A stretch of 64,000 bases of DNA. Origin: Notolepis coatsorum. Lineage: Eukaryota; Chordata; Actinopteri; Aulopiformes; Paralepididae. The number at the start of each line of letters is the position of its first letter. The first letter of the stretch is position 1. The notes under the pieces were generated by a model. The model saw only the letters and a list, made by a program, of their open reading frames with translations. It was not told the origin of the DNA and did no database searches. Of this stretch, positions 15,601 through 54,035 are shown in pieces. Where the stretch lies: positions 1,019,805 through 1,083,804 of the forward strand of contig CAXASK010000014.1 in assembly GCA_963971535.1 (NCBI GenBank). Reading direction: 5' to 3'. Made by a program: the position numbers and the translations under genes.

Positions 15601-18600
15601 TTGCTTGTTGTAGTTAACAGAGACAGAGTTGATTTTGCACACAATTTTTTTTTTTTTTTTTTTATATATTCAAATTTTATTTTCATATTCGAATGCCATG
15701 CCCATCGAACGAAGCTTCGAAGTATTTAAGACAGCCCTAGAGGACTCTGACCCAGGTATTTAGCTTCATGCAGTATTATTGTTGTGTTTCCTGACCCAGG
15801 TGTGCTTCAGCAGCGAGTGGCGGCCTTGGAGCAGGAGAGGTCAGAGTTCATTAAACTCAAACAGCAGCTGGAGTCGGAGTTCAACCAGAAACGGGCCAAG
15901 CTCAAAGAGCTCTTTCTGTCCAAGGAATGTAAGTAGTCCATAGTATTAACCCTTTGATCGCCGGGGTTAAATTCATAATTTACCATCCCTCGCCAGCCCT
16001 ATTTAACATGGAGAAGTTCCCCTTCTTTGCAGGGCTATAACTTTTTAAATTGTATTGCTAAATTGACATTATTATGGCCCATTCAACATCCTATATCTAT
16101 TGTTCAGGGTGTAGCAATGTTATACTTTTTCATTCACATATTCATACTAAAATACGGTCTGTTTTTATCGTTTTCTGCAGCTTTCTCCAGAACTTGATTT
16201 ATAGCCCTAAATGCATTATATTGATGATCAAATACAGTTTGGTAGGAATCTGTGCGAGATAAAAAATGTCAACTGGATGTACTTCTAGAAGTTACTACGT
16301 ATGATCTGATGATGACCGGATGGGCGGGGGGTCGTTTATAATTCCGTGGGCAACGTTATATCATTCATCTAGTGTGGGTGATATGATCATCAGAGCAGTT
16401 TATATGGAACACGTTAAAAAAACCCGCTGAATCTTACCGTAGCTTCCTCATAGCGTTGGGCGATGAGCGTGGAGCAGAGATATTCCTATTATGGGATGTA
16501 GAAATACCCGATCCATTTCCAGGTTGTATAATAGTATATACGTCCAAATCATATTGTTTATAGAGTTATTTGCACCGATCGGTGTTCACTGTGTCAAGAT
16601 GGAGTCCCTCTAATGATAGCGAGTGCCCGGACAAAATATGGGTGAGCACCACTTCATCCACAGATGACTTCCTGTTGGGCGATCTGCCGAACCAGATGGC
16701 GTTCTTGAACCGTTAGAGAGTTGAGTGGGGCTCTACAGTATATCTCAGGTCTCCGGGGGAGAAATAGGATTTCGATCACACAGATTTTTTAAATATTGAT
16801 ATCAAAGACGTGTTACGGCGTCTTCGGCAGAATGAGCATGGCGGGGAATGACGAGTTTCGGCGTCTCCGGCGATTAAAGGGTTAATACCGGCTGCTTGTT
16901 TTCAACGTAGACCCAACAGGGCAACCACCTGTACCTGTATTTATCAAGTAGGAGTGCTGATCTGAGGCCAGTCATGGTGAGGTGTACAAGATCATCGTCT
17001 GATCTTAGGTCAGTACTCCTAATCTTTGAAGTTTGATCAAAAAAAAATACGGGCCAAAACATTTCCAGAGGTATGGATTTTTATACCATTGTCCATGATA
17101 TATATACATATTGTAAAAAATATACATACAAGTTAATCCAAAAATGGTTCCTTGCAACAGTATTACAAAAGTAAAAGAAAATAGGGGCGTCCCCGGGTGG
17201 CGCACCACGTGTATGTATATATACGCTCAGCGTAACCGCAGCGCCCTGGGTTCGACTCCGGCCCAGGACCTGTGCTGCATGTCCTCCCCATCTCTCTCTC
17301 TCTCTCCCAATCTCCAAAACTGTCCTATCCACAATAAAGCAGAAAAATGCCATAAAAAAATATCTTTAAAAAGAAAATGTCTAATGAAATAACACCATGA
17401 GAATTGAATGACTTAAGACAACAACCTACTTTTTTTTTAATCACATTGTAATTTGTTCTGGAAAACGAAATGACCAAATTACCATCAAAACTAAGAAAGA
17501 TATCATGATATATTTGGCCCTATTAGAACCGGTTCTCGGTGCCCAACCCTATATGTGACCAATAAAACAAAACTTGAACAGTTATTTCATCGTTAGAAAG
17601 ACTCATCAGGTTGGTCTGCTTCTCCGGACATATTCTGATCTTTACTCTTGTCCAATCTCCCCTCTCCTCTGGTCCTTGTTGTCCCCCCGGCCCTCCCCAG
17701 ATGAGCTGAAGAGGCAGGCGGCGTCTCTGGAAGAGTCCCAGACCGAGCTCAGCTTTGTCCAGGCCCAGCTAGCCCAGGCCCAGGCGGAGATGGAGAACAT
17801 CAAGGAGGTAGCCACGGTGACGGAGAGCACCAAGCAGGAGGCCATCGACCAGGTCCGCAACCAGTGGCAGGAGGAGGTGGCCTCGCTGCAGGCCATCATG
17901 AAAGGTACACCGGCTGAAGGCTGAAGGCCCCATCCCCGACTTTCAGGACCATAACAATGTGGGGTTCAGTTCAGTTATTTTTTATTTCGGGTTTTGGACA
18001 CATAACGACGGTCATTCCATAAATCGCCAAAGTTTTACCAGCTGCTATTGCAGCATTGTCCGAAAAGGGCTGAAGGGAGAAGCACTAGGCTTGTCGGGCC
18101 CTACCCCTGAAGACTTTTTTTTTGTTTTTGTTTTTTCATTTACATACATACATAGTACATACATATAGTACACATTACAGTACACACATTACAGTATAGT
18201 ATACCTGCAGTACATAATGGTGTATACAGCACATATATAATGTGATATGAGATATATAGTACATGATATATACAAGATAATATAGTACCATAATATAATA
18301 GTATATATTGCAAATATAGTTCAATATAATATACAAATTAATTATAATATGATTATATAATGTGGGGTGTATTCACATCTAAGAGATTAAACATCTATAA
18401 TAGCTCCTATCTTCACAGTAGACCCAAAGAGATTAAACATCTAGAGAGAGCAGCTCCTATCTTCACAGTAGACTCAAAGAGATTAAACATCTAGAGAGAG
18501 CAGCTCCTATCTTCACAGTAGAATCAAGAGATTAAACATCTAGAGAGAGCAGCTCCCATCTTCACTGTGTTTAACAGTCTGGTCTCACTCTTGTCTCAGA

Positions 18601-21600
18601 CACTGTGTTTAACAGTCTGGTCTCACTCTTGTCTCAGACACAGTGTTTAACAGTCTGGTCTCACTCTTGTCTCAGACACTGTGTTTAACAGTCTGGTCTC
18701 ACTCTTGTCTCAGACACAGTGTTTAACAGTCTGGTCTCACTCTTGTCTCAGACACTGTGTTTAACAGTCTGGTCTCACTCTTGTCTCAGACACAGTGTTT
18801 AACAGTCTCTGGTCTCTCTGATCTCAGACACAGTGTTTAACAGTCTGGTCTCACTCTTGTCTCAGACACAGTGTTTAACAGTCTGGTCTCACTCTTGTCT
18901 CAGACACAGTGTTTAACAGTCTGGTCTCACTCTTGTCTCAGACACTGTGTTTAACAGTCTGGTCTCACTCTTGTCTCAGACACAGTGTTTAACAGTCTGG
19001 TCTCACTCTTGTCTCAGACACAGTGTTTAACAGTCTGGTCTCACTCTTGTCTCAGACACAGTGTTTAACAGTCTCTGGTCTCTCTGATCTCAGACACAGT
19101 GTTTAACAGTCTGGTCTCACTCTTGTCTCAGACACAGTGTTTAACAGTCTGGTCTCACTCTTGTCTCAGACACTGTGTTTAACAGTCTGGTCTCACTCTT
19201 GTCTCAGACACAGTGTTTAACAGTCTGGTCTCACTCTTGTCTCAGACACAGTGTTTAACAGTCTCGTCTCACTCTTGTCTCAGACACAGTGTTTAACAGT
19301 CTGGTCTCACTCTTGTCTCAGACACAGTGTTTAACAGTCTCTGGTCTCTCTGATCTCAGACACGGTGTTTAATTTAATTTCAAACCTTTATTTACAGTTG
19401 CGTCGAGTGTACATACAGAATTAAGCAAAAAGAAAAAGGCATATGAAATCATAACAATAAGACAAGTAAGGAAAAAAATCAATTAAAACATTTACAACTT
19501 GATTGACAAAGGTTTACCTTCAACAGTCTCTGGTTCTCAGTGTTCAACAGTCTCTGGTTCTCAGTGTTCAACAGTCTCTGGTTCTCAGTGTTCAACAGTC
19601 TCTGGTTCTCAGTGTTCAACAGTCTCTGGTTCTCAGTGTTCAACAGTCTCTGGTTCTCAGTGTTCAACAGTCTCTGGTTCTCAGTGTTCAACAGTCTCTG
19701 GTTCTCAGTGTTCAACAGTCTCTGGTTCTCAGTGTTCAACAGTCTCTGGTTCTCAGTGTTCAACAGTCTCTGGTTCTCAGTGTTCAACAGTCTCTGGTTC
19801 TCAGTGTTCAACAGTCTCTGGTTCTCAGTGTTCAACAGTCTCTGGTCTCCCTGGTTCTCAGACACGGTGTGCGAGTACGAGATGCAGTTCCACCAGCGTC
19901 TGGAGCAGGAGCGCGCCCAGTGGAACCAGTACCGCGAGGCGGTGGAGAGGGAGATGGGTGAATTGAGGCGCCGTCTCACCAAGGGACAGGAAGAGGAGAA
20001 CCTGGAGGACGCCATGAAGAAGGTGAGTTGTCTCATTTTTAACCCTTGATATCTATCTGCACTGGGGGGAAAAAATCTGTAAATCTGGTATGGTATAGAT
20101 GTAGCAGTACCGTCTATCTGTATGTCATGTATGTTATGATGAATTGAAAATGGGGGACCCTGATGTAAACAAGACAAAAGTCTTTCTCTGGTCTGCATCC
20201 CCTTAACAATTATGTGTGTATTGAGCCGTACTGTGTTGTACCCATTCTGCAATCTGTTAATAACATTTTCAATCAATTCAATCAATCAAACATCTGTCCA
20301 ACATCGCTGTCTTGTCTTGTCTGTCGGAGGCTCTCATTATAGCGGTATTATTATATTAACCCAAATCGTGAGGAATCCGTATTATGACAACCAGGCAGGG
20401 TTCGAAATTAACGGGGGCTTGGGGCATAATGCCCTTGAAAATGGACAAAATGCCCTCGAAAATCAGTTAAGGGGGGCACTTAATGCCCCCGACAGTTTAC
20501 TAATTATATATATATTTATCCGGTAATGGAGCGTCTGTATCGTACGGTTCAGATGACGCGCAAATAAAAAAATTCATTTGGCGGAGCCGGTGTTCTGCAC
20601 TGGCTGCAGGCAGCAGCAGCAGCACTGTAGCCAGGTGCTAGTCAGTTTGTGTAAAAATGGCACGCACAATATAAATCAATCTTCATTACGACTTTAAAAA
20701 CATAGCCATTAACATTACATAGGCCTACACACATCTTGCCATAGCAGTTTGTAAACACAACGCACGTTTTAACTATGGTAGCCCGACGCAGCCCGCAAGC
20801 TAATACTGTACAGTCAATGAAATGTCACCGTAGCTACTGTAGCAGAGGAGGAAATGGGAGTCTGAGAGGCGGGGTGTTTAAAGACAATGATAGGCGTTTA
20901 TTCAACATCCAAGAAGGCTAACATACAACTGTGTTTTACTAACTCCAACCGGGACTATTGCCGCTTTCCCACTGCATGCCATCACCTCCGAGTCCTAACG
21001 TTACCGGAGCTGATAATAACATTGCCTGAGCTGTAGGTGCGTGACACTAAAATGTCCGTGGGGACCCGGCGCCAACCCATAGATAGTTCCAACTCACCGA
21101 ATTGCGTAATCCACCACAGTTGCACTCAATATTTAAATAATGTTAGTCTAAATAAATGTAGACAGAAACATAATAATTTCAAGCAGAAAACGAATCTTTC
21201 CATTAAGAACTGACAATCAGGGAATTTAAACATGGTTGACATTGTTTTTGTGTGTTTATATTAATTAAAGAAAGGAAAGTCTAGTGCTGGCTGAGCATAT
21301 TGTTTGTTTGCACTAAGTTAATACTTTGACAAATGTAGCCTATATTTTTCAGTCAGTTCGGTCTTTGTGTGCCAAACATTATTTAAGGCTGTAAACACTG
21401 TAAACCTTTTATTTTTAATAAATGAGAAGCATGTTTAGATTTGAGTGTTACATTTTTTTTAATAAAGATTAACGTATATCGAACTGAAAACCGTGACCCC
21501 AAAATCGTGATACGAACCAAACCGTCCATTTTGTGAACCGTCCCACCCCTACCGTTTATCATAAAAATTCAGTGCCCCCGAAATACAAAAAAAAGCCCCC

Positions 21601-24600
21601 GAAAATCAATTAAGGGGGGGCAAAAAAAGCCCTTGAAAAAGAATGTTAATTTCTAACCCTGCAACCAGGTCATGCTAGCTCACCGGGAAAGGGATTAAAT
21701 ATCATAAATATAACATCATGGTTAAAGATTATGTCGTCACACAAAGTGTTATTTATTTACTGTAACACTTACAGAGAGTAGACCACAAAGTGTTATTTAT
21801 TTACTGTAATACTTCAAAGATAAAAAAAAAATTGATTTCATAGGGCCCTAGTTAAGGTGAGCTAATAAAACACTAGTAGTTTTGGGGGGCCTACCAGTCC
21901 ACCCCCCGTGAAAGAAATCCTAGGGGAAACACTGACTAAGTCCTTGTGTGTTTTGTCTCTGTCCTGAAGGCTCACGAGGACTAAGTCCTTGTGTGTTTTG
22001 TCTCTGTCCTGAAGGCTCAGGAGGACTAAGTCCTTGTGTGTTTTGTCTCTGTCCTGAAGGCTCAGGAGGACTAAGTCCTTGTGTGTTTTGTCTCTGTCCT
22101 GAAGGCTCACGAGGACTAAGTCCTTGTGTGTTTTGTCTCTGTCCTGAAGGCTCAGGAGGACTAAGTCCTTGTGTGTTTTGTCTCTGTCCTGGAGGCTCAC
22201 GAGGACTAAGTCCTTGTGTGTTTTGTCTCTGTCCTGGAGGCTCACGAGGACTAAGTCCTTGTGTGTTTTGTCTCTGTCCTGAAGGCTCAGGAGGACTAAG
22301 TCCTTGTGTGTTTTGTCTCTGTCCTGGAGGCTCAGGAGGACTAAGTCCTTGTGTGTTTTGTCTCTGTCCTGAAGGCTCAGGAGGACTAAGTCCTTGTGTG
22401 TTTTGTCTCTGTCCTGAAGGCTCACGAGGACTAAGTCCTTGTGTGTTTTGTCTCTGTCCTGAAGGCTCAGGAGGACTAAGTCCTTGTGTGTTTTGTCTCT
22501 GTCCTGAAGGCTCAGGAGGACTAAGTCCTTGTGTGTTTTGTCTCTGTCCTGGAGGCTCATGAGGACTAAGTCCTTGTGTGTTTTGTCTCTGTCCTGGAGG
22601 CTCACGAGGACTAAGTCCTTGTGTGTTTTGTCTCTGTCCTGAAGGCTCAGGAGGACTAAGTCCTTGTGTGTTTTGTCTCTGTCCTGAAGGCTCAGGAGGA
22701 CTAAGTCCTTGTGTGTTTTGTCTCTGTCCTGAAGGCTCAGGAGGACTAAGTCCTTGTGTGTTTTGTCTCTGTCCTGGAGGCTCACGAGGACTAAGTCCTT
22801 GTGTGTTTTGTCTCTGTCCTGAAGGCTCACGAGGACTAAGTCCTTGTGTGTTTTGTCTCTGTCCTGAAGGCTCAGGAGGACTAAGTCCTTGTGTGTTTTG
22901 TCTCTGTCCTGAAGGCTCAGGAGGACTAAGTCCTTGTGTGTTTTGTCTCTGTCCTGAAGGCTCAGGAGGACTAAGTCCTTGTGTGTTTTGTCTCTGTCCT
23001 GAAGGCTCAGGAGGACTAAGTCCTTGTGTGTTTTGTCTCTGTCCTGAAGGCTCACGAGGACTAAGTCCTTGTGTGTTTTGTCTCTGTCCTGAAGGCTCAC
23101 GAGGACTAAGTCCTTGTGTGTTTTGTCTCTGTCCTGAAGGCTCAGGAGGACTAAGTCCTTGTGTGTTTTGTCTCTGTCCTGAAGGCTCACGAGGACTAAG
23201 TCCTTGTGTGTTTTGTCTCTGTCCTGAAGGCTCAGGAGGACTAAGTCCTTGTGTGTTTTGTCTCTGTCCTGGAGGCTCAGGAGGACTAAGTCCTTGTGTG
23301 TTTTGTCTCTGTCCTGAAGGCTCAGGAGGACTAAGTCCTTGTGTGTTTTGTCTCTGTCCTGAAGGCTCAGGAGGACTAAGTCCTTGTGTGTTTTGTCTCT
23401 GTCCTGAAGGCTCAGGAGGACTAAGTCCTTGTGTGTTTTGTCTCTGTCCTGAAGGCTCACGAGGACTAAGTCCTTGTGTGTTTTGTCTCTGTCCTGGAGG
23501 CTCAGGAGGACTAAGTCCTTGTGTGTTTTGTCTCTGTCCTGAAGGCTCAGGAGGACTAAGTCCTTGTGTGTTTTGTCTCTGTCCTGAAGGCTCAGGAGGA
23601 CTAAGTCCTTGTGTGTTTTGTCTCTGTCCTGAAGGCTCACGAGGACTAAGTCCTTGTGTGTTTTGTCTCTGTCCTGGAGGCTCAGGAGGACTAAGTCCTT
23701 GTGTGTTTTGTCTCTGTCCTGAAGGCTCAGGAGGACTAAGTCCTTGTGTGTTTTGTCTCTGTCCTGAAGGCTCAGGAGGACTAAGTCCTTGTGTGTTTTG
23801 TCTCTGTCGTGAAGGCTCACGAGGACTAAGTCCTTGTGTGTTTTGTCTCTGTCCTGGAGGCTCAGGAGGACTAAGTCCTTGTGTGTTTTGTCTCTGTCCT
23901 GAAGGCTCAGGAGGACTAAGTCCTTGTGTGTTTTGTCTCTGTCCTGGAGGCTCACGAGGACTAAGTCCTTGTGTGTTTTGTCTCTGTCCTGGAGGCTCAG
24001 GAGGACTAAGTCCTTGTGTGTTTTGTCTCTGTCCTGAAGGCTCAGGAGGACTAAGTCCTTGGGTGTTTTGTCTCTGTCCTGAAGGCTCAGGAGGACTAAG
24101 TCCTTGTGTGTTTTGTCTCTGTCCTGAAGGCTCATGAGGACTAAGTCCTTGTGTGTTTTGTCTCTGTCCTGAAGGCTCAGGAGGACTAAGTCCTTGTGTG
24201 TTTTGTCTCTGTCCTGAAGGCTCAGGAGGACTAAGTCCTTGTGTGTTTTGTCTCTGTCCTGGAGGCTCACGAGGACTAAGTCCTTGTGTGTTTTGTCTCT
24301 GTCCTGGAGGCTCACGAGGACTAAGTCCTTGTGTGTTTTGTCTCTGTCCTGAAGGCTCATGAGGACTAAGTCCTTGTGTGTTTTGTCTCTGTCCTGGAGG
24401 CTCAGGAGGACTAAGTCCTTGTGTGTTTTGTCTCTGTCCTGGAGGCTCACGAGGACTAAGTCCTTGTGTGTTTTGTCTCTGTCCTGAAGGCTCACGAGGA
24501 CTAAGTCCTTGTGTGTTTTGTCTCTGTCCTGGAGGCTCAGGAGGACTAAGTCCTTGTGTGTTTTGTCTCTGTCCTGAAGGCTCAGGAGGACTAAGTCCTT

Positions 24601-27600
24601 GTGTGTTTTGTCTCTGTCCTGAAGGCTCAGGAGGACTAAGTCCTTGTGTGTTTTGTCTCTGTCCTGAAGGCTCAGGAGGACTAAGTCCTTGTGTGTTTTG
24701 TCTCTGTCCTGAAGGCTCACGAGGACTAAGTCCTTGTGTGTTTTGTCTCTGTCCTGGAGGCTCAGGAGGACTAAGTCCTTGTGTGTTTTGTCTCTGTCCT
24801 GAAGGCTCAGGAGGACTAAGTCCTTGTGTGTTTTGTCTCTGTCCTGAAGGCTCAGGAGGACTAAGTCCTTGTGTGTTTTGTCTCTGTCCTGAAGGCTCAG
24901 GAGGACTAAGTCCTTGTGTGTTTTGTCTCTGTCCTGAAGGCTCAGGAGGACTAAGTCCTTGTGTGTTTTGTCTCTGTCCTGAAGGCTCAGGAGGACTAAG
25001 TCCTTGTGTGTTTTGTCTCTGTCCTGGAGGCTCAGGAGGACTAAGTCCTTGTGTGTTTTGTCTCTGTCCTGAAGGCTCAGGAGGACTAAGTCCTTGTGTG
25101 TTTTGTCTCTGTCCTGGAGGCTCAGGAGGACTAAGTCCTTGTGTGTTTTGTCTCTGTCCTGAAGGCTCACGAGGACTAAGTCCTTGTGTGTTTTGTCTCT
25201 GTCCTGAAGGCTCAGGAGGACTAAGTCCTTGTGTGTTTTGTCTCTGTCCTGAAGGCTCACGAGGACTAAGTCCTTGTGTGTTTTGTCTCTGTCCTGAAGG
25301 CTCAGGAGGACTAAGTCCTTGTGTGTTTTGTCTCTGTCCTGAAGGCTCAGGAGGACTAAGTCCTTGTGTGTTTTGTCTCTGTCCTGAAGGCTCAGGAGGA
25401 CTAAGTCCTTGTGTGTTTTGTCTCTGTCCTGGAGGCTCAGGAGGACTAAGTCCTTGTGTGTTTTGTCTCTGTCCTGAAGGCTCAGGAGGACTAAGTCCTT
25501 GTGTGTTTTGTCTCTGTCCTGGAGGCTCAGGAGGACTAAGTCCTTGTGTGTTTTGTCTCTGTCCTGAAGGCTCAGGAGGACTAAGTCCTTGTGTGTTTTG
25601 TCTCTGTCCTGGAGGCTCATGAGGACTAAGTCCTTGTGTGTTTTGTCTCTGTCCTGGAGGCTCACGAGGACTAAGTCCTTGTGTGTTTTGTCTCTGTCCT
25701 GAAGGCTCAGGAGGACTAAGTCCTTGTGTGTTTTGTCTCTGTCCTGAAGGCTCAGGAGGACTAAGTCCTTGTGTGTTTTGTCTCTGTCCTGGAGGCTCAG
25801 GAGGACTAAGTCCTTGTGTGTTTTGTCTCTGTCCTGAAGGCTCAGGAGGACTAAGTCCTTGTGTGTTTTGTCTCTGTCCTGGAGGCTCAGGAGGACTAAG
25901 TCCTTGTGTGTTTTGTCTCTGTCCTGAAGGCTCAGGAGGACTAAGTCCTTGTGTGTTTTGTCTCTGTCCTGAAGGCTCAGGAGGACTAAGTCCTTGTGTG
26001 TTTTGTCTCTGTCCTGAAGGCTCACGAGGACTAAGTCCTTGTGTGTTTTGTCTCTGTCCTGAAGGCTCACGAGGACTAAGTCCTTGTGTGTTTTGTCTCT
26101 GTCCTGAAGGCTCAGGAGGACTAAGTCCTTGTGTGTTTTGTCTCTGTCCTGAAGGCTCATGAGGACTAAGTCCTTGTGTGTTTTGTCTCTGTCCTGAAGG
26201 CTCACGAGGACTAAGTCCTTGTGTGTTTTGTCTCTGTCCTGAAGGCTCAGGAGGACTAAGTCCTTGTGTGTTTTGTCTCTGTCCTGAAGGCTCAGGAGGA
26301 CTAAGTCCTTGTGTGTTTTGTCTCTGTCGTGAAGGCTCAGGAGGACTAAGTCCTTGTGTGTTTTGTCTCTGTCCTGAAGGCTCACGAGGACTAAGTCCTT
26401 GTGTGTTTTGTCTCTGTCCTGGAGGCTCAGGAGGACTAAGTCCTTGTGTGTTTTGTCTCTGTCCTCAAGGCTCAGGAGGACTAAGTCCTTGTGTGTTTTG
26501 TCTCTGTCCTGGAGGCTCACGAGGACTAAGTCCTTGTGTGTTTTGTCTCTGTCCTGAAGGCTCAGGAGGACTAAGTCCTTGTGTGTTTTGTCTCTGTCCT
26601 GAAGGCTCAGGAGGACTAAGTCCTTGTGTGTTTTGTCTCTGTCCTGAAGGCTCACGAGGACTAAGTCCTTGTGTGTTTTGTCTCTGTCCTGAAGGCTCAG
26701 GAGGACTAAGTCCTTGTGTGTTTTGTCTCTGTCCTGAAGGCTCACGAGGACTAAGTCCTTGTGTGTTTTGTCTCTGTCCTGAAGGCTCAGGAGGACTAAG
26801 TCCTTGTGTGTTTTGTCTCTGTCCTGAAGGCTCACGAGGACTAAGTCCTTGTGTGTTTTGTCTCTGTCCTGAAGGCTCAGGAGGACTAAGTCCTTGTGTG
26901 TTTTGTCTCTGTCCTGGAGGCTCAGGAGGACTAAGTCCTTGTGTGTTTTGTCTCTGTCCTGAAGGCTCATGAGGACTAAGTCCTTGTGTGTTTTGTCTCT
27001 GTCCTGAAGGCTCAGGAGGACTAAGTCCTTGTGTGTTTTGTCTCTGTCCTGAAGGCTCAGGAGGACTAAGTCCTTGTGTGTTTTGTCTCTGTCCTGGAGG
27101 CTCACGAGGACTAAGTCCTTGTGTGTTTTGTCTCTGTCCTGGAGGCTCACGAGGACTAAGTCCTTGTGTGTTTTGTCTCTGTCCTGAAGGCTCATGAGGA
27201 CTAAGTCCTTGTGTGTTTTGTCTCTGTCCTGGAGGCTCAGGAGGACTAAGTCCTTGTGTGTTTTGTCTCTGTCCTGGAGGCTCACGAGGACTAAGTCCTT
27301 GTGTGTTTTGTCTCTGTCCTGAAGGCTCACGAGGACTAAGTCCTTGTGTGTTTTGTCTCTGTCCTGGAGGCTCAGGAGGACTAAGTCCTTGTGTGTTTTG
27401 TCTCTGTCCTGAAGGCTCAGGAGGACTAAGTCCTTGTGTGTTTTGTCTCTGTCCTGAAGGCTCAGGAGGACTAAGTCCTTGTGTGTTTTGTCTCTGTCCT
27501 GAAGGCTCACGAGGACTAAGTCCTTGTGTGTTTTGTCTCTGTCCTGAAGGCTCACGAGGACTAAGTCCTTGTGTGTTTTGTCTCTGTCCTGAAGGCTCAG

Positions 27601-30600
27601 GAGGACTAAGTCCTTGTGTGTTTTGTCTCTGTCCTGAAGGCTCACGAGGACTAAGTCCTTGTGTGTTTTTTGTCTCTGTCCTGAAGGCTCAGGAGGACTA
27701 AGTCCTTGTGTGTTTTGTCTCTGTCCTGGAGGCTCAGGAGGACTAAGTCCTTGTGTGTTTTGTCTCTGTCCTGAAGGCTCAGGAGGACTAAGTCCTTGTG
27801 TGTTTTGTCTCTGTCCTGAAGGCTCAGGAGGACTAAGTCCTTGTGTGTTTTGTCTCTGTCCTGAAGGCTCAGGAGGACTAAGTCCTTGTGTGTTTTGTCT
27901 CTGTCCTGAAGGCTCACGAGGACTAAGTCCTTGTGTGTTTTGTCTCTGTCCTGGAGGCTCAGGAGGACTAAGTCCTTGTGTGTTTTGTCTCTGTCCTGAA
28001 GGCTCAGGAGGACTAAGTCCTTGTGTGTTTTGTCTCTGTCCTGAAGGCTCAGGAGGACTAAGTCCTTGTGTGTTTTGTCTCTGTCCTGAAGGCTCACGAG
28101 GACTAAGTCCTTGTGTGTTTTGTCTCTGTCCTGGAGGCTCAGGAGGACTAAGTCCTTGTGTGTTTTGTCTCTGTCCTGAAGGCTCAGGAGGACTAAGTCC
28201 TTGTGTGTTTTGTCTCTGTCCTGAAGGCTCAGGAGGACTAAGTCCTTGTGTGTTTTGTCTCTGTCGTGAAGGCTCACGAGGACTAAGTCCTTGTGTGTTT
28301 TGTCTCTGTCCTGGAGGCTCAGGAGGACTAAGTCCTTGTGTGTTTTGTCTCTGTCCTGAAGGCTCAGGAGGACTAAGTCCTTGTGTGTTTTGTCTCTGTC
28401 CTGGAGGCTCACGAGGACTAAGTCCTTGTGTGTTTTGTCTCTGTCCTGGAGGCTCAGGAGGACTAAGTCCTTGTGTGTTTTGTCTCTGTCCTGAAGGCTC
28501 AGGAGGACTAAGTCCTTGTGTGTTTTGTCTCTGTCCTGGAGGCTCACGAGGACTAAGTCCTTGTGTGTTTTGTCTCTGTCCTGGAGGCTCACAAGGACTA
28601 AGTCCTTGTGTGTTTTGTCTCTGTCCTGAAGGCTCAGGAGGACTAAGTCCTTGTGTGTTTTGTCTCTGTCCTGAAGGCTCACGAGGACTAAGTCCTTGTG
28701 TGTTTTGTCTCTGTCCTGAAGGCTCAGGAGGACTAAGTCCTTGTGTGTTTTGTCTCTGTCCTGAAGGCTCACGAGGACTAAGTCCTTGTGTGTTTTGTCT
28801 CTGTCCTGAAGGCTCAGGAGGACTAAGTCCTTGTGTGTTTTGTCTCTGTCCTGGAGGCTCAGGAGGACTAAGTCCTTGTGTGTTTTGTCTCTGTCCTGAA
28901 GGCTCAGGAGGACTAAGTCCTTGTGTGTTTTGTCTCTGTCCTGAAGGCTCACGAGGACTAAGTCCTTGTGTGTTTTGTCTCTGTCCTGAAGGCTCAGGAG
29001 GACTAAGTCCTTGTGTGTTTTGTCTCTGTCCTGGAGGCTCAGGAGGACTAAGTCCTTGGGTGTTTTGTCTCTGTCCTGAAGGCTCAGGAGGACTAAGTCC
29101 TTGTGTGTTTTGTCTCTGTCCTGAAGGCTCATGAGGACTAAGTCCTTGTGTGTTTTGTCTCTGTCCTGAAGGCTCAGGAGGACTAAGTCCTTGTGTGTTT
29201 TGTCTCTGTCCTGAAGGCTCAGGAGGACTAAGTCCTTGTGTGTTTTGTCTCTGTCCTGGAGGCTCACGAGGACTAAGTCCTTGTGTGTTTTGTCTCTGTC
29301 CTGGAGGCTCACGAGGACTAAGTCCTTGTGTGTTTTGTCTCTGTCCTGAAGGCTCATGAGGACTAAGTCCTTGTGTGTTTTGTCTCTGTCCTGGAGGCTC
29401 AGGAGGACTAAGTCCTTGTGTGTTTTGTCTCTGTCCTGGAGGCTCACGAGGACTAAGTCCTTGTGTGTTTTGTCTCTGTCCTGAAGGCTCACGAGGACTA
29501 AGTCCTTGTGTGTTTTGTCTCTGTCCTGGAGGCTCAGGAGGACTAAGTCCTTGTGTGTTTTGTCTCTGTCCTGAAGGCTCAGGAGGACTAAGTCCTTGTG
29601 TGTTTTGTCTCTGTCCTGAAGGCTCAGGAGGACTAAGTCCTTGTGTGTTTTGTCTCTGTCCTGAAGGCTCAGGAGGACTAAGTCCTTGTGTGTTTTGTCT
29701 CTGTCCTGAAGGCTCACGAGGACTAAGTCCTTGTGTGTTTTGTCTCTGTCCTGGAGGCTCAGGAGGACTAAGTCCTTGTGTGTTTTGTCTCTGTCCTGAA
29801 GGCTCAGGAGGACTAAGTCCTTGTGTGTTTTGTCTCTGTCCTGAAGGCTCAGGAGGACTAAGTCCTTGTGTGTTTTGTCTCTGTCCTGAAGGCTCAGGAG
29901 GACTAAGTCCTTGTGTGTTTTGTCTCTGTCCTGAAGGCTCAGGAGGACTAAGTCCTTGTGTGTTTTGTCTCTGTCCTGAAGGCTCAGGAGGACTAAGTCC
30001 TTGTGTGTTTTGTCTCTGTCCTGGAGGCTCAGGAGGACTAAGTCCTTGTGTGTTTTGTCTCTGTCCTGAAGGCTCAGGAGGACTAAGTCCTTGTGTGTTT
30101 TGTCTCTGTCCTGGAGGCTCAGGAGGACTAAGTCCTTGTGTGTTTTGTCTCTGTCCTGAAGGCTCACGAGGACTAAGTCCTTGTGTGTTTTGTCTCTGTC
30201 CTGAAGGCTCAGGAGGACTAAGTCCTTGTGTGTTTTGTCTCTGTCCTGAAGGCTCACGAGGACTAAGTCCTTGTGTGTTTTGTCTCTGTCCTGAAGGCTC
30301 AGGAGGACTAAGTCCTTGTGTGTTTTGTCTCTGTCCTGAAGGCTCAGGAGGACTAAGTCCTTGTGTGTTTTGTCTCTGTCCTGAAGGCTCAGGAGGACTA
30401 AGTCCTTGTGTGTTTTGTCTCTGTCCTGGAGGCTCAGGAGGACTAAGTCCTTGTGTGTTTTGTCTCTGTCCTGAAGGCTCAGGAGGACTAAGTCCTTGTG
30501 TGTTTTGTCTCTGTCCTGGAGGCTCAGGAGGACTAAGTCCTTGTGTGTTTTGTCTCTGTCCTGAAGGCTCAGGAGGACTAAGTCCTTGTGTGTTTTGTCT

Positions 30601-33600
30601 CTGTCCTGGAGGCTCATGAGGACTAAGTCCTTGTGTGTTTTGTCTCTGTCCTGGAGGCTCACGAGGACTAAGTCCTTGTGTGTTTTGTCTCTGTCCTGAA
30701 GGCTCAGGAGGACTAAGTCCTTGTGTGTTTTGTCTCTGTCCTGAAGGCTCAGGAGGACTAAGTCCTTGTGTGTTTTGTCTCTGTCCTGGAGGCTCAGGAG
30801 GACTAAGTCCTTGTGTGTTTTGTCTCTGTCCTGAAGGCTCAGGAGGACTAAGTCCTTGTGTGTTTTGTCTCTGTCCTGGAGGCTCAGGAGGACTAAGTCC
30901 TTGTGTGTTTTGTCTCTGTCCTGAAGGCTCAGGAGGACTAAGTCCTTGTGTGTTTTGTCTCTGTCCTGAAGGCTCAGGAGGACTAAGTCCTTGTGTGTTT
31001 TGTCTCTGTCCTGAAGGCTCACGAGGACTAAGTCCTTGTGTGTTTTGTCTCTGTCCTGAAGGCTCACGAGGACTAAGTCCTTGTGTGTTTTGTCTCTGTC
31101 CTGAAGGCTCAGGAGGACTAAGTCCTTGTGTGTTTTGTCTCTGTCCTGAAGGCTCATGAGGACTAAGTCCTTGTGTGTTTTGTCTCTGTCCTGAAGGCTC
31201 ACGAGGACTAAGTCCTTGTGTGTTTTGTCTCTGTCCTGAAGGCTCAGGAGGACTAAGTCCTTGTGTGTTTTGTCTCTGTCCTGAAGGCTCAGGAGGACTA
31301 AGTCCTTGTGTGTTTTGTCTCTGTCGTGAAGGCTCAGGAGGACTAAGTCCTTGTGTGTTTTGTCTCTGTCCTGAAGGCTCACGAGGACTAAGTCCTTGTG
31401 TGTTTTGTCTCTGTCCTGGAGGCTCAGGAGGACTAAGTCCTTGTGTGTTTTGTCTCTGTCCTCAAGGCTCAGGAGGACTAAGTCCTTGTGTGTTTTGTCT
31501 CTGTCCTGGAGGCTCACGAGGACTAAGTCCTTGTGTGTTTTGTCTCTGTCCTGAAGGCTCAGGAGGACTAAGTCCTTGTGTGTTTTGTCTCTGTCCTGAA
31601 GGCTCAGGAGGACTAAGTCCTTGTGTGTTTTGTCTCTGTCCTGAAGGCTCACGAGGACTAAGTCCTTGTGTGTTTTGTCTCTGTCCTGAAGGCTCAGGAG
31701 GACTAAGTCCTTGTGTGTTTTGTCTCTGTCCTGAAGGCTCACGAGGACTAAGTCCTTGTGTGTTTTGTCTCTGTCCTGAAGGCTCAGGAGGACTAAGTCC
31801 TTGTGTGTTTTGTCTCTGTCCTGAAGGCTCACGAGGACTAAGTCCTTGTGTGTTTTGTCTCTGTCCTGAAGGCTCAGGAGGACTAAGTCCTTGTGTGTTT
31901 TGTCTCTGTCCTGGAGGCTCAGGAGGACTAAGTCCTTGTGTGTTTTGTCTCTGTCCTGAAGGCTCATGAGGACTAAGTCCTTGTGTGTTTTGTCTCTGTC
32001 CTGAAGGCTCAGGAGGACTAAGTCCTTGTGTGTTTTGTCTCTGTCCTGAAGGCTCAGGAGGACTAAGTCCTTGTGTGTTTTGTCTCTGTCCTGGAGGCTC
32101 ACGAGGACTAAGTCCTTGTGTGTTTTGTCTCTGTCCTGGAGGCTCACGAGGACTAAGTCCTTGTGTGTTTTGTCTCTGTCCTGAAGGCTCATGAGGACTA
32201 AGTCCTTGTGTGTTTTGTCTCTGTCCTGGAGGCTCAGGAGGACTAAGTCCTTGTGTGTTTTGTCTCTGTCCTGGAGGCTCACGAGGACTAAGTCCTTGTG
32301 TGTTTTGTCTCTGTCCTGAAGGCTCACGAGGACTAAGTCCTTGTGTGTTTTGTCTCTGTCCTGGAGGCTCAGGAGGACTAAGTCCTTGTGTGTTTTGTCT
32401 CTGTCCTGAAGGCTCAGGAGGACTAAGTCCTTGTGTGTTTTGTCTCTGTCCTGAAGGCTCAGGAGGACTAAGTCCTTGTGTGTTTTGTCTCTGTCCTGAA
32501 GGCTCAGGAGGACTAAGTCCTTGTGTGTTTTGTCTCTGTCCTGAAGGCTCACGAGGACTAAGTCCTTGTGTGTTTTGTCTCTGTCCTGGAGGCTCAGGAG
32601 GACTAAGTCCTTGTGTGTTTTGTCTCTGTCCTGAAGGCTCAGGAGGACTAAGTCCTTGTGTGTTTTGTCTCTGTCCTGAAGGCTCAGGAGGACTAAGTCC
32701 TTGTGTGTTTTGTCTCTGTCCTGAAGGCTCAGGAGGACTAAGTCCTTGTGTGTTTTGTCTCTGTCCTGAAGGCTCAGGAGGACTAAGTCCTTGTGTGTTT
32801 TGTCTCTGTCCTGAAGGCTCAGGAGGACTAAGTCCTTGTGTGTTTTGTCTCTGTCCTGGAGGCTCACGAGGACTAAGTCCTTGTGTGTTTTGTCTCTGTC
32901 CTGAAGGCTCAGGAGGACTAAGTCCTTGTGTGTTTTGTCTCTGTCCTGGAGGCTCAGGAGGACTAAGTCCTTGTGTGTTTTGTCTCTGTCCTGAAGGCTC
33001 AGGAGGACTAAGTCCTTGTGTGTTTTGTCTCTGTCCTGAAGGCTCAGGAGGACTAAGTCCTTGTGTGTTTTGTCTCTGTCCTGGAGGCTCAGGAGGACTA
33101 AGTCCTTGTGTGTTTTGTCTCTGTCCTGAAGGCTCACGAGGACTAAGTCCTTGTGTGTTTTGTCTCTGTCCTGAAGGCTCAGGAGGACTAAGTCCTTGTG
33201 TGTTTTGTCTCTGTCCTGAAGGCTCACGAGGACTAAGTCCTTGTGTGTTTTGTCTCTGTCCTGAAGGCTCAGGAGGACTAAGTCCTTGTGTGTTTTGTCT
33301 CTGTCCTGAAGGCTCAGGAGGACTAAGTCCTTGTGTGTTTTGTCTCTGTCCTGAAGGCTCAGGAGGACTAAGTCCTTGTGTGTTTTGTCTCTGTCCTGGA
33401 GGCTCAGGAGGACTAAGTCCTTGTGTGTTTTGTCTCTGTCCTGAAGGCTCAGGAGGACTAAGTCCTTGTGTGTTTTGTCTCTGTCCTGAAGGCTCAGGAG
33501 GACTAAGTCCTTGTGTGTTTTGTCTCTGTCCTGGAGGCTCATGAGGACTAAGTCCTTGTGTGTTTTGTCTCTGTCCTGGAGGCTCACGAGGACTAAGTCC

Positions 33601-36600
33601 TTGTGTGTTTTGTCTCTGTCCTGAAGGCTCAGGAGGACTAAGTCCTTGTGTGTTTTGTCTCTGTCCTGAAGGCTCAGGAGGACTAAGTCCTTGTGTGTTT
33701 TGTCTCTGTCCTGGAGGCTCAGGAGGACTAAGTCCTTGTGTGTTTTGTCTCTGTCCTGAAGGCTCAGGAGGACTAAGTCCTTGTGTGTTTTGTCTCTGTC
33801 CTGAAGGCTCAGGAGGACTAAGTCCTTGTGTGTTTTGTCTCTGTCCTGGAGGCTCACGAGGACTAAGTCCTTGTGTGTTTTGTCTCTGTCCTGAAGGCTC
33901 ACGAGGACTAAGTCCTTGTGTGTTTTGTCTCTGTCCTGAAGGCTCACGAGGACTAAGTCCTTGTGTGTTTTGTCTCTGTCCTGAAGGCTCAGGAGGACTA
34001 AGTCCTTGTGTGTTTTGTCTCTGTCCTGAAGGCTCACGAGGACTAAGTCCTTGTGTGTTTTGTCTCTGTCCTGAAGGCTCACGAGGACTAAGTCCTTGTG
34101 TGTTTTGTCTCTGTCCTGAAGGCTCACGAGGACTAAGTCCTTGTGTGTTTTGTCTCTGTCCTGAAGGCTCACGAGGACTAAGTCCTTGTGTGTTTTGTCT
34201 CTGTCCTGGAGGCTCAGGAGGACTAAGTCCTTGTGTGTTTTGTCTCTGTCCTGGAGGCTCAGGAGGACTAAGTCCTTGTGTGTTTTGTCTCTGTCCTGGA
34301 GGCTCAGGAGGACTAAGTCCTTGTGTGTTTTGTCTCTGTCCTGAAGGCTCACGAGGACTAAGTCCTTGTGTGTTTTGTCTCTGTCCTGGAGGCTCAGGAG
34401 GACTAAGTCCTTGTGTGTTTTGTCTCTGTCCTGAAGGCTCAGGAGGACTAAGTCCTTGTGTGTTTTGTCTCTGTCCTGAAGGCTCACGAGGACTAAGTCC
34501 TTGTGTGTTTTGTCTCTGTCCTGAAGGCTCAGGAGGACTAAGTCCTTGTGTGTTTTGTCTCTGTCCTGGAGGCTCACGAGGACTAAGTCCTTGTGTGTTT
34601 TGTCTCTGTCCTGAAGGCTCAGGAGGACTAAGTCCTTGTGTGTTTTGTCTCTGTCCTGGAGGCTCACGAGGACTAAGTCCTTGTGTGTTTTGTCTCTGTC
34701 CTGAAGGCTCAGGAGGACTAAGTCCTTGTGTGTTTTGTCTCTGTCCTGGAGGCTCAGGAGGACTAAGTCCTTGTGTGTTTTGTCTCTGTCCTGAAGGCTC
34801 AGGAGGACTAAGTCCTTGTGTGTTTTGTCTCTGTCCTGAAGGCTCACGAGGACTAAGTCCTTGTGTGTTTTGTCTCTGTCCTGAAGGCTCAGGAGGACTA
34901 AGTCCTTGTGTGTTTTGTCTCTGTCCTGGAGGCTCACGAGGACTAAGTCCTTGTGTGTTTTGTCTCTGTCCTGGAGGCTCACGAGGACTAAGTCCTTGTG
35001 TGTTTTGTCTCTGTCCTGAAGGCTCACGAGGACTAAGTCCTTGTGTGTTTTGTCTCTGTCCTGAAGGCTCAGGAGGACTAAGTCCTTGTGTGTTTTGTCT
35101 CTGTCCTGGAGGCTCAGGAGGACTAAGTCCTTGTGTGTTTTGTCTCTGTCCTGAAGGCTCAGGAGGACTAAGTCCTTGTGTGTTTTGTCTCTGTCCTGGA
35201 GGCTCAGGAGGACTAAGTCCTTGTGTGTTTTGTCTCTGTCCTGAAGGCTCAGGAGGACTAAGTCCTTGTGTGTTTTGTCTCTGTCCTGGAGGCTCAGGAG
35301 GACTAAGTCCTTGTGTGTTTTGTCTCTGTCCTGAAGGCTCAGGAGGACTAAGTCCTTGTGTGTTTTGTCTCTGTCCTGAAGGCTCAGGAGGACTAAGTCC
35401 TTGTGTGTTTTGTCTCTGTCCTGAAGGCTCAGGAGGACTAAGTCCTTGTGTGTTTTGTCTCTGTCCTGGAGGCTCAGGAGGACTAAGTCCTTGTGTGTTT
35501 TGTCTCTGTCCTGAAGGCTCATGAGGACTAAGTCCTTGTGTGTTTTGTCTCTGTCCTGAAGGCTCAGGAGGACTAAGTCCTTGTGTGTTTTGTCTCTGTC
35601 CTGGAGGCTCATGAGGACTAAGTCCTTGTGTGTTTTGTCTCTGTCCTGAAGGCTCAGGAGGACTAAGTCCTTGTGTGTTTTGTCTCTGTCCTGAAGGCTC
35701 AGGAGGACTAAGTCCTTGTGTGTTTTGTCTCTGTCCTGAAGGCTCAGGAGGACTAAGTCCTTGTGTGTTTTGTCTCTGTCCTGAAGGCTCAGGAGGACTA
35801 AGTCCTTGTGTGTTTTGTCTCTGTCCTGGAGGCTCAGGAGGACTAAGTCCTTGTGTGTTTTGTCTCTGTCCTGAAGGCTCACGAGGACTAAGTCCTTGTG
35901 TGTTTTGTCTCTGTCCTGGAGGCTCAGGAGGACTAAGTCCTTGTGTGTTTTGTCTCTGTCCTGAAGGCTCACGAGGACTAAGTCCTTGTGTGTTTTGTCT
36001 CTGTCCTGAAGGCTCAGGAGGACTAAGTCCTTGTGTGTTTTGTCTCTGTCCTGAAGGCTCAGGAGGACTAAGTCCTTGTGTGTTTTGTCTCTGTCCTGAA
36101 GGCTCAGGAGGACTAAGTCCTTGTGTGTTTTGTCTCTGTCCTGAAGGCTCACGAGGACTAAGTCCTTGTGTGTTTTGTCTCTGTCCTGAAGGCTCAGGAG
36201 GACTAAGTCCTTGTGTGTTTTGTCTCTGTCCTGAAGGCTCAGGAGGACTAAGTCCTTGTGTGTTTTGTCTCTGTCCTGAAGGCTCAGGAGGACTAAGTCC
36301 TTGTGTGTTTTGTCTCTGTCCTGAAGGCTCAGGAGGACTAAGTCCTTGTGTGTTTTGTCTCTGTCCTGGAGGCTCAGGAGGACTAAGTCCTTGTGTGTTT
36401 TGTCTCTGTCCTGAAGGCTCACGAGGACTAAGTCCTTGTGTGTTTTGTCTCTGTCCTGAAGGCTCACGAGGACTAAGTCCTTGTGTGTTTTGTCTCTGTC
36501 CTGGAGGCTCAGGAGGACTAAGTCCTTGTGTGTTTTGTCTCTGTCCTGGAGGCTCAGGAGGACTAAGTCCTTGTGTGTTTTGTCTCTGTCCTGAAGGCTC

Positions 36601-39600
36601 AGGAGGACTAAGTCCTTGTGTGTTTTGTCTCTGTCCTGAAGGCTCAGGAGGACTAAGTCCTTGTGTGTTTTGTCTCTGTCCTGGAGGCTCAGGAGGACTA
36701 AGTCCTTGTGTGTTTTGTCTCTGTCCTGAAGGCTCACGAGGACTAAGTCCTTGTGTGTTTTGTCTCTGTCCTGGAGGCTCAGGAGGACTAAGTCCTTGTG
36801 TGTTTTGTCTCTGTCCTGAAGGCTCACGAGGACTAAGTCCTTGTGTGTTTTGTCTCTGTCCTGAAGGCTCACGAGGACTAAGTCCTTGTGTGTTTTGTCT
36901 CTGTCCTGAAGGCTCAGGAGGACTAAGTCCTTGTGTGTTTTGTCTCTGTCCTGAAGGCTCAGGAGGACTAAGTCCTTGTGTGTTTTGTCTCTGTCCTCAA
37001 GGCTCAGGAGGACTAAGTCCTTGTGTGTTTTGTCTCTGTCCTGAAGGCTCACGAGGACTAAGTCCTTGTGTGTTTTGTCTCTGTCCTGAAGGCTCAGGAG
37101 GACTAAGTCCTTGTGTGTTTTGTCTCTGTCCTGGAGGCTCAGGAGGACTAAGTCCTTGTGTGTTTTGTCTCTGTCCTGAAGGCTCACGAGGACTAAGTCC
37201 TTGTGTGTTTTGTCTCTGTCCTGAAGGCTCACGAGGACTAAGTCCTTGGGTGTTTTGTCTCTGTCCTGGAGGCTCAGGAGGACTAAGTCCTTGTGTGTTT
37301 TGTCTCTGTCCTGGAGGCTCACGAGGACTAAGTCCTTGTGTGTTTTGTCTCTGTCCTGAAGGCTCAGGAGGACTAAGTCCTTGTGTGTTTTGTCTCTGTC
37401 CTGAAGGCTCACGAGGACTAAGTCCTTGTGTGTTTTGTCTCTGTCCTGAAGGCTCACGAGGACTAAGTCCTTGTGTGTTTTGTCTCTGTCCTGAAGGCTC
37501 AGGAGGACTAAGTCCTTGTGTGTTTTGTCTCTGTCGTGAAGGCTCAGGAGGACTAAGTCCTTGTGTGTTTTGTCTCTGTCCTGAAGGCTCAGGAGGACTA
37601 AGTCCTTGTGTGTTTTGTCTCTGTCCTGAAGGCTCAGGAGGACTAAGTCCTTGTGTGTTTTGTCTCTGTCCTGAAGGCTCATGAGGACGCCGAGAAGCTC
37701 CGGTCAGTAGTGATGCCCATGGAGCAGGAGATAGCGGCTCTGAAGGCCAAGCTCTCTTCAGCCGAGGACCGGGTGAAGGACCTGGAGGCCTCCGAGGTGA
37801 GCGCCTGTCCCTCAACGTCTGTCTTTAATCATGTTTCAACGAGGAGTATCTGTTCGTCGGACAGGGCCGGGGCGATGCTCCCGCCATGTTTGTGTCTGTG
37901 TTTCGACGGGGCAGAAAAGTTGCGAGAGGATGAACTTTTGGCCCCCGACGGATAAGATTACCACTGTTATTTAAACTGTACGATTACTTAGGTTTTCATT
38001 TCAAAACAAACCCAACAGACTGTAATACCTTCCATCTAATGTCTATCCGCTCCGTCTCGGATCAATATAGCTGGCCTTAAAGGAGCACGCCAACATTTTT
38101 GGGAAATTAGCTTAGTATACCATCTTCTCCAGAGAGAGAGACAAGAAGATAAGACACCAGTTTCCTCTCTGTGCGTTCAGTAGAAAGCTATCTGGCTGCA
38201 CGTTAGCCTAGCTTAGCACAATGAATGGAAGCGGACATGGCCGGTTAGCCTACAAGGCATTGTCCAACTAACACCTCTCCCGAAGGCTAACCGGCCATGT
38301 CCACTTCCATTCATTGTGCTAAGCTAGGCTAACATGCAGCCAGATGGCTTTCTACTGAACGCACAAATGTGTATTTTGCTTGATATACATGAGGCCCATT
38401 ATATCTACTTACATTAAACTGACATTGTTTTGCAGGTGAAGGAGCTGAACCATGTCCTGGAGGCTGAGAAGTCATGTCGTACCGACCTGGAGATGTACGT
38501 GGCTGTGCTCAACACCCAGAAGGCCGTTCTGCAGGAAGACGCGGAGAAGCTACGCAAAGAACTGCATGAAGGTAGGCCTCCTCCAAAATAAAAGTCCCCC
38601 TGTTTATCTTCAAACATCTCTGAGACACGGGGGAGGGGATGACGGGGGGGAAGTGAGGTACGTGTGGCTGCTCAAGTAGAATAATAACACATGGATAGGG
38701 TTCAGTGAGCCCAGTCTAATGATAATGATAACCACACTAGGCTAGAGTTTAGTGTGGCCAGTAGGGCTGCAACTAATGACTATTTTGGTAGTCGACTAAT
38801 CTGTCGATTTATTTTTTCGATTAGTCGACTAATCGAAAAACAATTATATTAAAAAAAATATATATATATATCTTTTTTTCTTTTTTTTTTTCATTACCTA
38901 TCTTTGTGAAAGTGGCTTCTCAGCTCTGGTCCAGCTGAAGACCGAGCAGAGGAACAGATTGGACATTGAGCATGACCTCAGAGTTGCTTTGAGACTCTTG
39001 TCAGGACCAAACAACATCCCCAGTTATCCCATTAGTTCCCCCAAACTTACTGTCGGTCTGTTATGTTAAGCTAAGAAGTCTTCAGCTGGCTGGACCAGAG
39101 CTGAGAAGCCACTTTCACAAAGATAGGTAGTGCAAAAAAAAATATATATATATATAATAATAATAATATTTTTTTTTAATGACTAATCGACGCAACAATA
39201 TCTCGTCGACGATTTTTCATAATCGACTAATCGTTGCAGCCCTAGTGGCCAGTAGAGTTTAGTGTGCCTTAGGGCCGTCTTAAATACTTCGAAGCTTCGT
39301 TCGATGGGCATGGGATTCGAATATGAAAATAAAATTCGATTAAAAAAAAAATATATATATATATATATGATTTAATTTATTTTTTATTTTTTTTAAATCA
39401 ACTCTGCCTCTCTTTGTTAACTACAACAAGCAATGCTGTTTGTTATTTAAGATGAGGTCGGACTCGGCACTGACAGATTTGTGTTCATTGTGCTGCTTTT
39501 ATAAAGCATTGTGCCGCTTCTCATCGGAGTTTGTTTTTGTTAGTGTCTACACACGTTGAAGTCCATGTACTGTGTCTGTCCATGTACTATAATTCAATGT

Positions 39601-44000: not shown

Positions 44001-44796
44001 AGAGAGCAAAATAAAGAGGCCAGATCTATGATGAACTTTGTGCTCAAAATCGACTAGACTAGTGCTTCCCAAACCTCTCGTCGAGACACACCAGCCGTTC
44101 AATGTATTTGTTAAATTCCACCACCAGCACACCTATTATTGTTTTTGTTATTTTCCTGTGAAGTTCTGTGTATTGTGATTAATGTGTTGTCTTGTTTCAT
44201 GTAAGTAATAATAAAAAAAAATTGATAAAAAAAAAACTAGCCCTTTATTAGTTTAATCAGGTGTGCTGGTAGTGGAATTTAACAAATACATGGAACAACG
44301 GCTGGGGTGCTTCAAGGAGAGGTTTGGGAACCACTGGACCAGAGCTGACATTTGAGCCGTCAAAGAAATGAAGCAAAAGTGGTTACCTGTGTTGAACTGG
44401 TTTATTTTTTAGAAAATAAAAAGAATATAGTGGATTACTATTACGACCACTACCACTGCCAATACTACTGATACATCCCTATTGGCAAACTTTATATTTA
44501 AAAATAATAGTAAAAAAAAAAAAAAATTAAAAAAAAAATTATATTTGTTTGTAAATATTTTTTTTGGTTCATTATACAACTGTGGCGGGACTAATTAGAC
44601 TTCTCCTCCTTCCCCCTCCCCTCCTCCTCGTCCTCGTCCTCCCCCCTCTCCTCCTCCTCCTCTTCCTCTTCCTCCTTCTCTTCCTCCGCCTTCTCCTCCT
44701 CCTCCTTCTCCTCTTCCTCCTTCTCCTTCTCCTCCTCGTCCTCCTTCTCCTTCTCCTCCTTCTCATTCTCCTCCTCCTCCTCGTCCTCCTTCTCCT

Positions 44797-44828
<32 letters not shown>

Positions 44829-53800: not shown

Positions 53801-53937
53801 ATCTCTCCCCCCCCTTCCTCTCTCTCCCCCCCTCCCTCTCTCTCCCTCTCCCCCCTCCCCCCTCCCTCTCTCTCCCTCCCCCCTCCCCCCCTCTCTCTCT
53901 CTCCCCCCCCCCCCCCCCTCTCTCTCTCTCTCTCCCG

Positions 53938-53969
<32 letters not shown>

Positions 53970-53995
53970 ATCTCTCTATCTATCTCTCTATCTCT

Positions 53996-54035
<40 letters not shown>

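Follow-up and report, generated by a model that had tools for sequence, protein, structure and literature searches.

Tandem repeats that carry a splice site of a coding exon have been described in human genes. In ABCA7, a 25-bp variable number tandem repeat (VNTR) in intron 18 includes the donor of exon 18; its alleles range from about 12 to 427 units, and every unit of the reference sequence starts with the GT of the exon donor (PMC5954066). Despite the presence of 12 to 427 donors, retention of one unit amounts to only about 2% (PMC5954066). The structure considered here lies at the opposite end of an exon, in a rabaptin gene of the fish Notolepis coatsorum, where a 45-bp array in intron 4 repeats the acceptor of exon 5 until the real acceptor is reached as the last of 350. 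It lies within a 64,000-nucleotide stretch of contig CAXASK010000014.1 (assembly GCA_963971535.1, positions 1,019,805 to 1,083,804 of the forward strand), referred to below as the window, and coordinates follow the numbering of that window. As in ABCA7, a coding gene has a minisatellite on one of its splice borders, and the scale is the same; at ABCA7, retention of one unit shifts the reading frame (PMC5954066). Here too the unit holds the native splice site of a coding exon (junction 37676/37677), with 349 full units. They differ in that the ABCA7 repeat is on the donor side and its 25-bp unit begins at the border and, as far as the repeat is described, includes no exon bases, whereas each unit here combines an acceptor with 12 exon bases. 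The arrays at exon 5 and exon 4 of the rabaptin gene copy acceptors rather than donors, and three donor arrays follow farther along the gene. The array at exon 5 is thus a structure of the same kind as the ABCA7 VNTR, on the other side of the exon. Moreover, ABCA7 is one locus studied because of disease, whereas in the present genome many loci are involved.

Other described systems share some of these features. Tandem repeats at exon-intron boundaries have been catalogued in human duplicated genes, with 27 intron modifications, and these are likewise border minisatellites that alter gene structure (PMC2812944). They average about 30 bp and 4 units, belong to recent paralogues, and are associated with new introns (PMC2812944), whereas the arrays described here reach 350 units, lie in conserved genes, and give no sign of a new intron. 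Given these human border repeats and the ABCA7 VNTR, the view of the first-pass annotation of this DNA that such a structure had not been described has to be given up; in one open-licence library, no report was found of an acceptor array this large or of a genome in which many borders are arrayed. Intron gain through tandem duplication of AGGT-bearing segments also copies splice signals by duplication but requires both a donor and an acceptor in the segment (PMC4974935); the 45-bp unit has an acceptor, and its GT contexts look weak by eye, none resembling a good donor. Decoy or poison exons, for example in OGT, similarly present competing upstream acceptors that lead to a stop, but they are conserved single exons with donors of their own (PMC12017769), in contrast to the 349 apparently donor-less copies seen here. 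Among fishes, Nothobranchius furzeri also has an unusual minisatellite load, with tandem repeats making up 21% of its genome, but its abundant GC-rich repeats are centromeric families (PMC2688266), whereas each array in the present genome is built from the splice border at which it lies.

The 45-bp array is real, and its occurrence by chance is excluded. Tandem Repeats Finder (TRF) gives a period of 45 with 97% matches and 350.1 copies, a copy number that is best taken as approximate. Parsed in the register of the exon, the array consists of an intronic part-unit followed by 349 full units, all of 45 bp except one of 47 bp, after the last of which the real exon begins at 37677; the 349 upstream acceptors and the real one together make 350 acceptors, all of which keep AG. 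Each unit comprises 33 intronic and 12 exonic nucleotides, which include a CTAAG branch-like motif, an AG-free T-rich tract, AAG or GAG, and the first 12 nt of exon 5 (GCTCATGAGGAC in the last unit). From this content every unit is predicted to be competent as an acceptor. Variation among the 349 full units is limited to 12 distinct sequences, the consensus accounting for 161 of them, and 39 of the 45 positions are invariant across the 348 units of equal length. Nearly all of the variation falls at exon position +6 (G in 232 decoys, C in 101, and T in 16) and at acceptor position -3 (A in 250 and G in 99), so that 99 of the 349 decoys carry GAG, the weakest class of acceptor. One run of 77 units reappears exactly 4,997 bp downstream, a sign either of a large unequal exchange or of a duplication in the assembly, and a sign that the units of the array are not independent.

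The unit is confined to this locus. Across the whole 3.4-Gb genome, a pattern of the unit allowing at most two mismatches gives 349 forward and no reverse matches, a number equal to the count of full units, and among the matches listed all fall within the array on C22, the sequence that carries it; a control with the reversed pattern gave no match in the whole genome. A dispersed satellite family is thereby ruled out, and DNA matches of 70% on C1 and C30 proved to be other arrays, with units of 22 bp and 39 bp.

The gene that houses the array was identified by tblastn using a human rabaptin-5 (RABEP1) sequence as query, which revealed a collinear series of rabaptin exons that runs through the window and extends as far as about 109 kb in the same numbering. 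The borders of exons 3-7 are AG/GT, and splicing these exons together leaves a single open frame of 266 codons, the product of which matches the Pfam family Rabaptin (PF03528) from end to end with an E value of 2.7e-152. Intron 4 measures 17.65 kb and intron 5 measures 639 nt; because exon 5 is 120 nt long and of phase 0 at both ends, it can be skipped in frame. Table 1 gives the positions of these exons together with those of the arrays.

Table 1. Positions in the window of rabaptin exons 3-7, of the arrays at or near their borders, and of landmarks within the 45-bp array
Feature	Position	Strand	Basis
Rabaptin exon 3	17701..17904	+	tblastn; AG/GT borders, frame open into exon 4
38-bp array, 21 copies, exon 4 acceptor with first exon bases (CTCAG/ACACAGTG), in intron 3	18563..19372	+	TRF, sequence
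24-bp array, 13.7 copies, shortened form of acceptor (TTCTCAG/TG) shortly before the real acceptor of exon 4	19519..19846	+	TRF, sequence
Rabaptin exon 4	19862..20022	+	tblastn; borders and frame
45-bp acceptor array, 349 full units and 350 acceptors, junctions 21969/21970 to 37676/37677 (the real one)	21934..37688	+	TRF, parse, genome count
77-unit run, repeated exactly at 29037-32501	24040..27504	+	parse; ends computed as 77 x 45 bp
Sole unit of other length (47 bp)	27640..27686	+	parse
Rabaptin exon 5, 120 nt, phase 0 at both ends	37677..37796	+	tblastn; borders and frame
Exon 5 donor GTGAGCGC	37797..37804	+	border analysis
Rabaptin exon 6, 95.6% identity to the human query sequence over 45 residues	38436..38571	+	tblastn; borders
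Rabaptin exon 7	44845..45023	+	tblastn; borders
33-bp array, about 253 copies, continuing past the window end to 69643	61161..64000	+	TRF, sequence

These results uphold much of the first-pass annotation, which had described some 350 tandem copies of an acceptor module spanning the border between intron 4 and exon 5 of a conserved gene, the last being the real acceptor of exon 5, and which had asked how that last unit comes to be chosen. The question is a real one. The claim that the last unit is identical to the commonest variants does not hold, however, since only 11 of the 349 decoys match it over all 45 nt, the 33 intronic bases alone being found in 239. Nor is it quite true that the real site has no visible advantage in its sequence, as it alone among the sites of the array has an exon after it and a GTGAGC donor 120 nt away. 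Because the real site departs from the repeat after position +12, its downstream sequence differs from that of the decoys, with a purine fraction of 0.62 from +1 to +60 as compared with 0.44 over the 45-nt unit.

The consequence of choosing any other unit can be read from the translation. When exon 4 is joined to an upstream acceptor, a stop follows after four codons for all 349 decoys, because the TAA of the branch-like motif lies in the frame of the exon; the premature stop on inclusion that typifies poison or decoy exons is therefore found throughout. With AG retained at every acceptor and a stop behind every decoy, a working gene needs either the last site or the skipping of the exon. Recursive splicing was ruled out as a role for the repeated sites, the junction reading AAG or GAG/GCTCA at all 350 of them, with no AG/GT.

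The array is probably a splice-border minisatellite that is tolerated because exon definition selects the copy proximal to the exon. It may have originated in a small tandem duplication straddling the acceptor of rabaptin exon 5, and would then have grown to its present size, probably by unequal exchange, a route that both the low diversity of the units and the exact duplication of 77 of them would fit. A duplication that straddles a border and contains a complete splice signal would be tolerable because the copy adjoining the exon still works. As both flanking introns are long, it is proposed that exon 5 is recognised by exon definition, in which case U1 bound at its donor would favour the acceptor giving the shortest exon, that is, the last unit and an exon of 120 nt, while a decoy k units upstream could form only an exon of 120 + 45k nt. 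Because the unit seems to offer no good donor, distant decoys would be left without an exon partner, and the real rivals of the true acceptor would be the last few units. Transcripts that nevertheless used a decoy would meet the stop four codons in and be destroyed by nonsense-mediated decay. On this view the genome contains many splice-border minisatellites, and the exon 5 array is one example. The proposal is supported by published data in which exon definition prefers the sites lying nearest across the exon (PMC9225289), and by the low rate of one-unit retention at ABCA7 (PMC5954066).

Several considerations weigh against this proposal. The decoys nearest the exon have not been weakened, the last eight acceptors all being AAG. 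Early decoys would be transcribed minutes before the real site and so would be kinetically favoured. Furthermore, alternative acceptors show an overall preference for the upstream site that in the class with long introns is reduced but not reversed (PMC9225289), and longer arrays at ABCA7 do disturb splicing, with more skipping of exon 19 (PMC5954066). A last point comes from exon 4 of the same gene: although a stop is present in 21 of 21 translated decoys of its 38-bp array, the decoys of the adjacent 24-bp array are in frame and free of stops in all 13 tested, from which it follows that poisoning of the transcript is not a general property of these arrays. The first-pass annotation was silent both on these exon 4 acceptor arrays in the window and on the recurrence of such structures elsewhere in the genome.

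A reading in which the array acts as a brake would make use of the same properties. Under it, decoys would draw U2AF and U2 away from the real site, much of the RNA would be retained, spliced to decoys and destroyed, or spliced with omission of exon 5, and the length of the array would set the output of rabaptin. The intact state of the decoys, the stops behind all of them, and the 120-nt, phase 0 exon are compatible with such a device, and at ABCA7 array length tracks both exon 19 skipping and lower expression (PMC5954066). Similar arrays are nevertheless found on housekeeping genes of unrelated function, which argues against a gene-specific device and leaves this reading unlikely.

That recurrence was established in a sample of three families chosen regardless of repeats, CCT/TCP1, adaptin, and proteasome; myosin matches, many of which resemble recent paralogues, were left aside. 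The sample comprises 109 exon matches with 218 borders in 98 sequence windows and includes 55 of 56 CCT matches (one on C502 was omitted as a suspected contaminant), 34 of 53 adaptin matches (one intronless match and 18 others were omitted), and 20 of 25 proteasome matches. Most of the first 81 exon matches had flanks of about 400 bases on either side, a few having less where windows abut, and the other 28 had flanks of 100-130 bases. Exon ends were taken from profile matches, and matches with stops or that are possibly not true exons were retained. Arrays were counted at periods of 15-130 and at least 2.9 copies, two-letter repeats being excluded, and border calls were made by eye on the sequence; a script had flagged 13 cases, and inspection by eye added the donor of locus L115, where the profile match fell 19 nt short and had kept the script from flagging it.

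Within this sample of conserved genes, arrays on exon edges are more frequent than chance placement would produce. There are 28 minisatellites, of which 14 have units that include a splice border (an acceptor in 8 and a donor in 6), as compared with 2.75 expected under uniform birth of arrays across flanks and borders (P ~3e-8). The wide windows alone give 11 border-spanning arrays among 23 against 1.75 expected (P ~2e-7), and an expectation based on density (0.25 arrays/kb in the 264-kb region around the rabaptin locus) is 2.2 border arrays against the 14 seen. Because arrays cluster by gene, with four in one CCT gene and three in one AP2 alpha gene, the count was also made with one border array per gene, which gives 8 of 22 against 2.0 expected (P ~3e-4). 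The gene labels used for this collapsing (CCT2, CCT3, CCT8, AP2 alpha, and others) are a reading of the peptides rather than the result of a tool, and although the label of L049 is uncertain, the count of eight genes is unaffected.

By eye, the copy adjoining the exon keeps its GT or AG in 14 of 14 border arrays. Over all copies, the real site included, the dinucleotide is kept in 9 of 9 for L038, 12 of 13 for L087, 10 of 14 for L040, and 2 of 5 for L049; the corresponding row for the L115 acceptor was misaligned by a run of C. Two candidates, L067 and L078, were rejected as border cases because they begin a few nucleotides past the donor; L110, an ambiguous case, was not counted, and L121, a pyrimidine repeat before an exon, was counted as an array but not as a border case. 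L117 (an acceptor, 2.5 copies, AG lost in both decoys) and L106 (a donor, 2.3 copies) seem to span a border as well, but with too few copies for the threshold they remain uncounted. Single exons may carry arrays on both acceptor and donor, as in L050 (1-429 and 555-961, a CCT gene) and L115 (1-140 and 336-431, AP2 alpha), the names again coming from peptide reading. In addition, paralogous exons on different chromosomes have arrays with different units on the same acceptor border (L082 and L083; L114 and L117, the last below threshold), a pattern that hints at local predisposition or at great age.

One account of these cases is that minisatellites are everywhere in this genome and that those on borders are the yield of chance. 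Arrays with periods of 15-130 do take up 78,965 bp, or about 30%, of the 263.8-kb region surrounding the locus. Border arrays are found at 8 of 110 borders in CCT and 6 of 68 in adaptin genes and, at 2.9 copies or more, at none of the 40 proteasome borders; the clustering by gene means that the counts are not independent, and the calls were made by eye. The excess persists under each of the expectations given above, including that of one array per gene, and chance is accordingly quite improbable as the source of the border cases. That exon-intron borders, donors as well as acceptors, are hot spots of minisatellite birth here, at a rate roughly five times that predicted from neighbouring sequence, with many conserved genes carrying arrays of their own splice sites and relying on exon definition to ignore them, is a proposal toward which belief and doubt are evenly divided. 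Slippage in pyrimidine tracts could underlie the preference for borders at acceptors, but 6 of the 14 cases are donors.

Splice borders of the rabaptin gene itself are arrayed at four more places, the exon 4 acceptor and three donors beyond the window. The donor arrays lie at about 71013 (a 58-bp unit, 12 sites), at about 91000 (57- and 83-bp units, 10 sites), and at about 108133 (5 sites), the real site being included in each count. At 90944-91346 in window numbering, beyond the window on C22, a 57-bp in-frame repeat combines coiled-coil coding sequence with a donor in about seven copies, which could be read either as protein repeats or as seven donors. Not every array in the region spans a border. 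The 33-bp array leaves about 60 bases between its end and the next rabaptin acceptor, its units each having a pyrimidine tract and TAG, and a 42-bp array at 54566 was set aside because it begins 8 nt past a donor. Pyrimidine tracts at 44603-44839 (about 240 bp) and 53520-54079 (about 560 bp), excluded from the counts of border arrays, extend up to the acceptors of two exons (at 44845 and 54103). An intronic 48-bp array at 56153-56833 (14 copies, 99%) ends in the donor-like CTGTGAGTATT; no exon was identified at that array.

So many arrayed borders in one gene might suggest a decaying pseudogene, in which the arrays would be irrelevant to any product, and tblastn with the human query indeed left a gap of about 48 codons, from human residue 322 to 369. 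The open chain of exons 3-7 with its AG/GT borders and the strength of the Rabaptin match make this very unlikely, and a search for a second rabaptin copy was negative, its three matches all being exons 5-7 of the window itself. An artefact of assembly, affecting the array or its length, could be suspected from the exact 77-unit duplication, from the size of C22 (only 2.4 Mb, in the class of unplaced contigs), and from runs of N in the surrounding region (none in the window), but is hardly credible given border arrays of different sequence at many separate loci and an order of unit variants that differs along most of the array.

Exons accompanied by 3 to 350 near-identical splice sites represent a natural experiment on splice-site choice that would be hard to build. 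Because such sites hardly differ in sequence and vary only in position, ordinary RNA sequencing could reveal by what rule, and over what range, exon definition acts, for acceptors and donors alike and in several genes. If the excess at borders holds genome-wide, hundreds of equal sites mean that gene annotation in this species will misplace exon ends, and the disease-associated ABCA7 VNTR would become an example of a recurrent structure rather than a single case. The same excess would imply a mutation process focused on splice borders and, if the hot-spot reading is true, splicing itself, or the chromatin or sequence at splice borders, would be tied to the local duplication of DNA.

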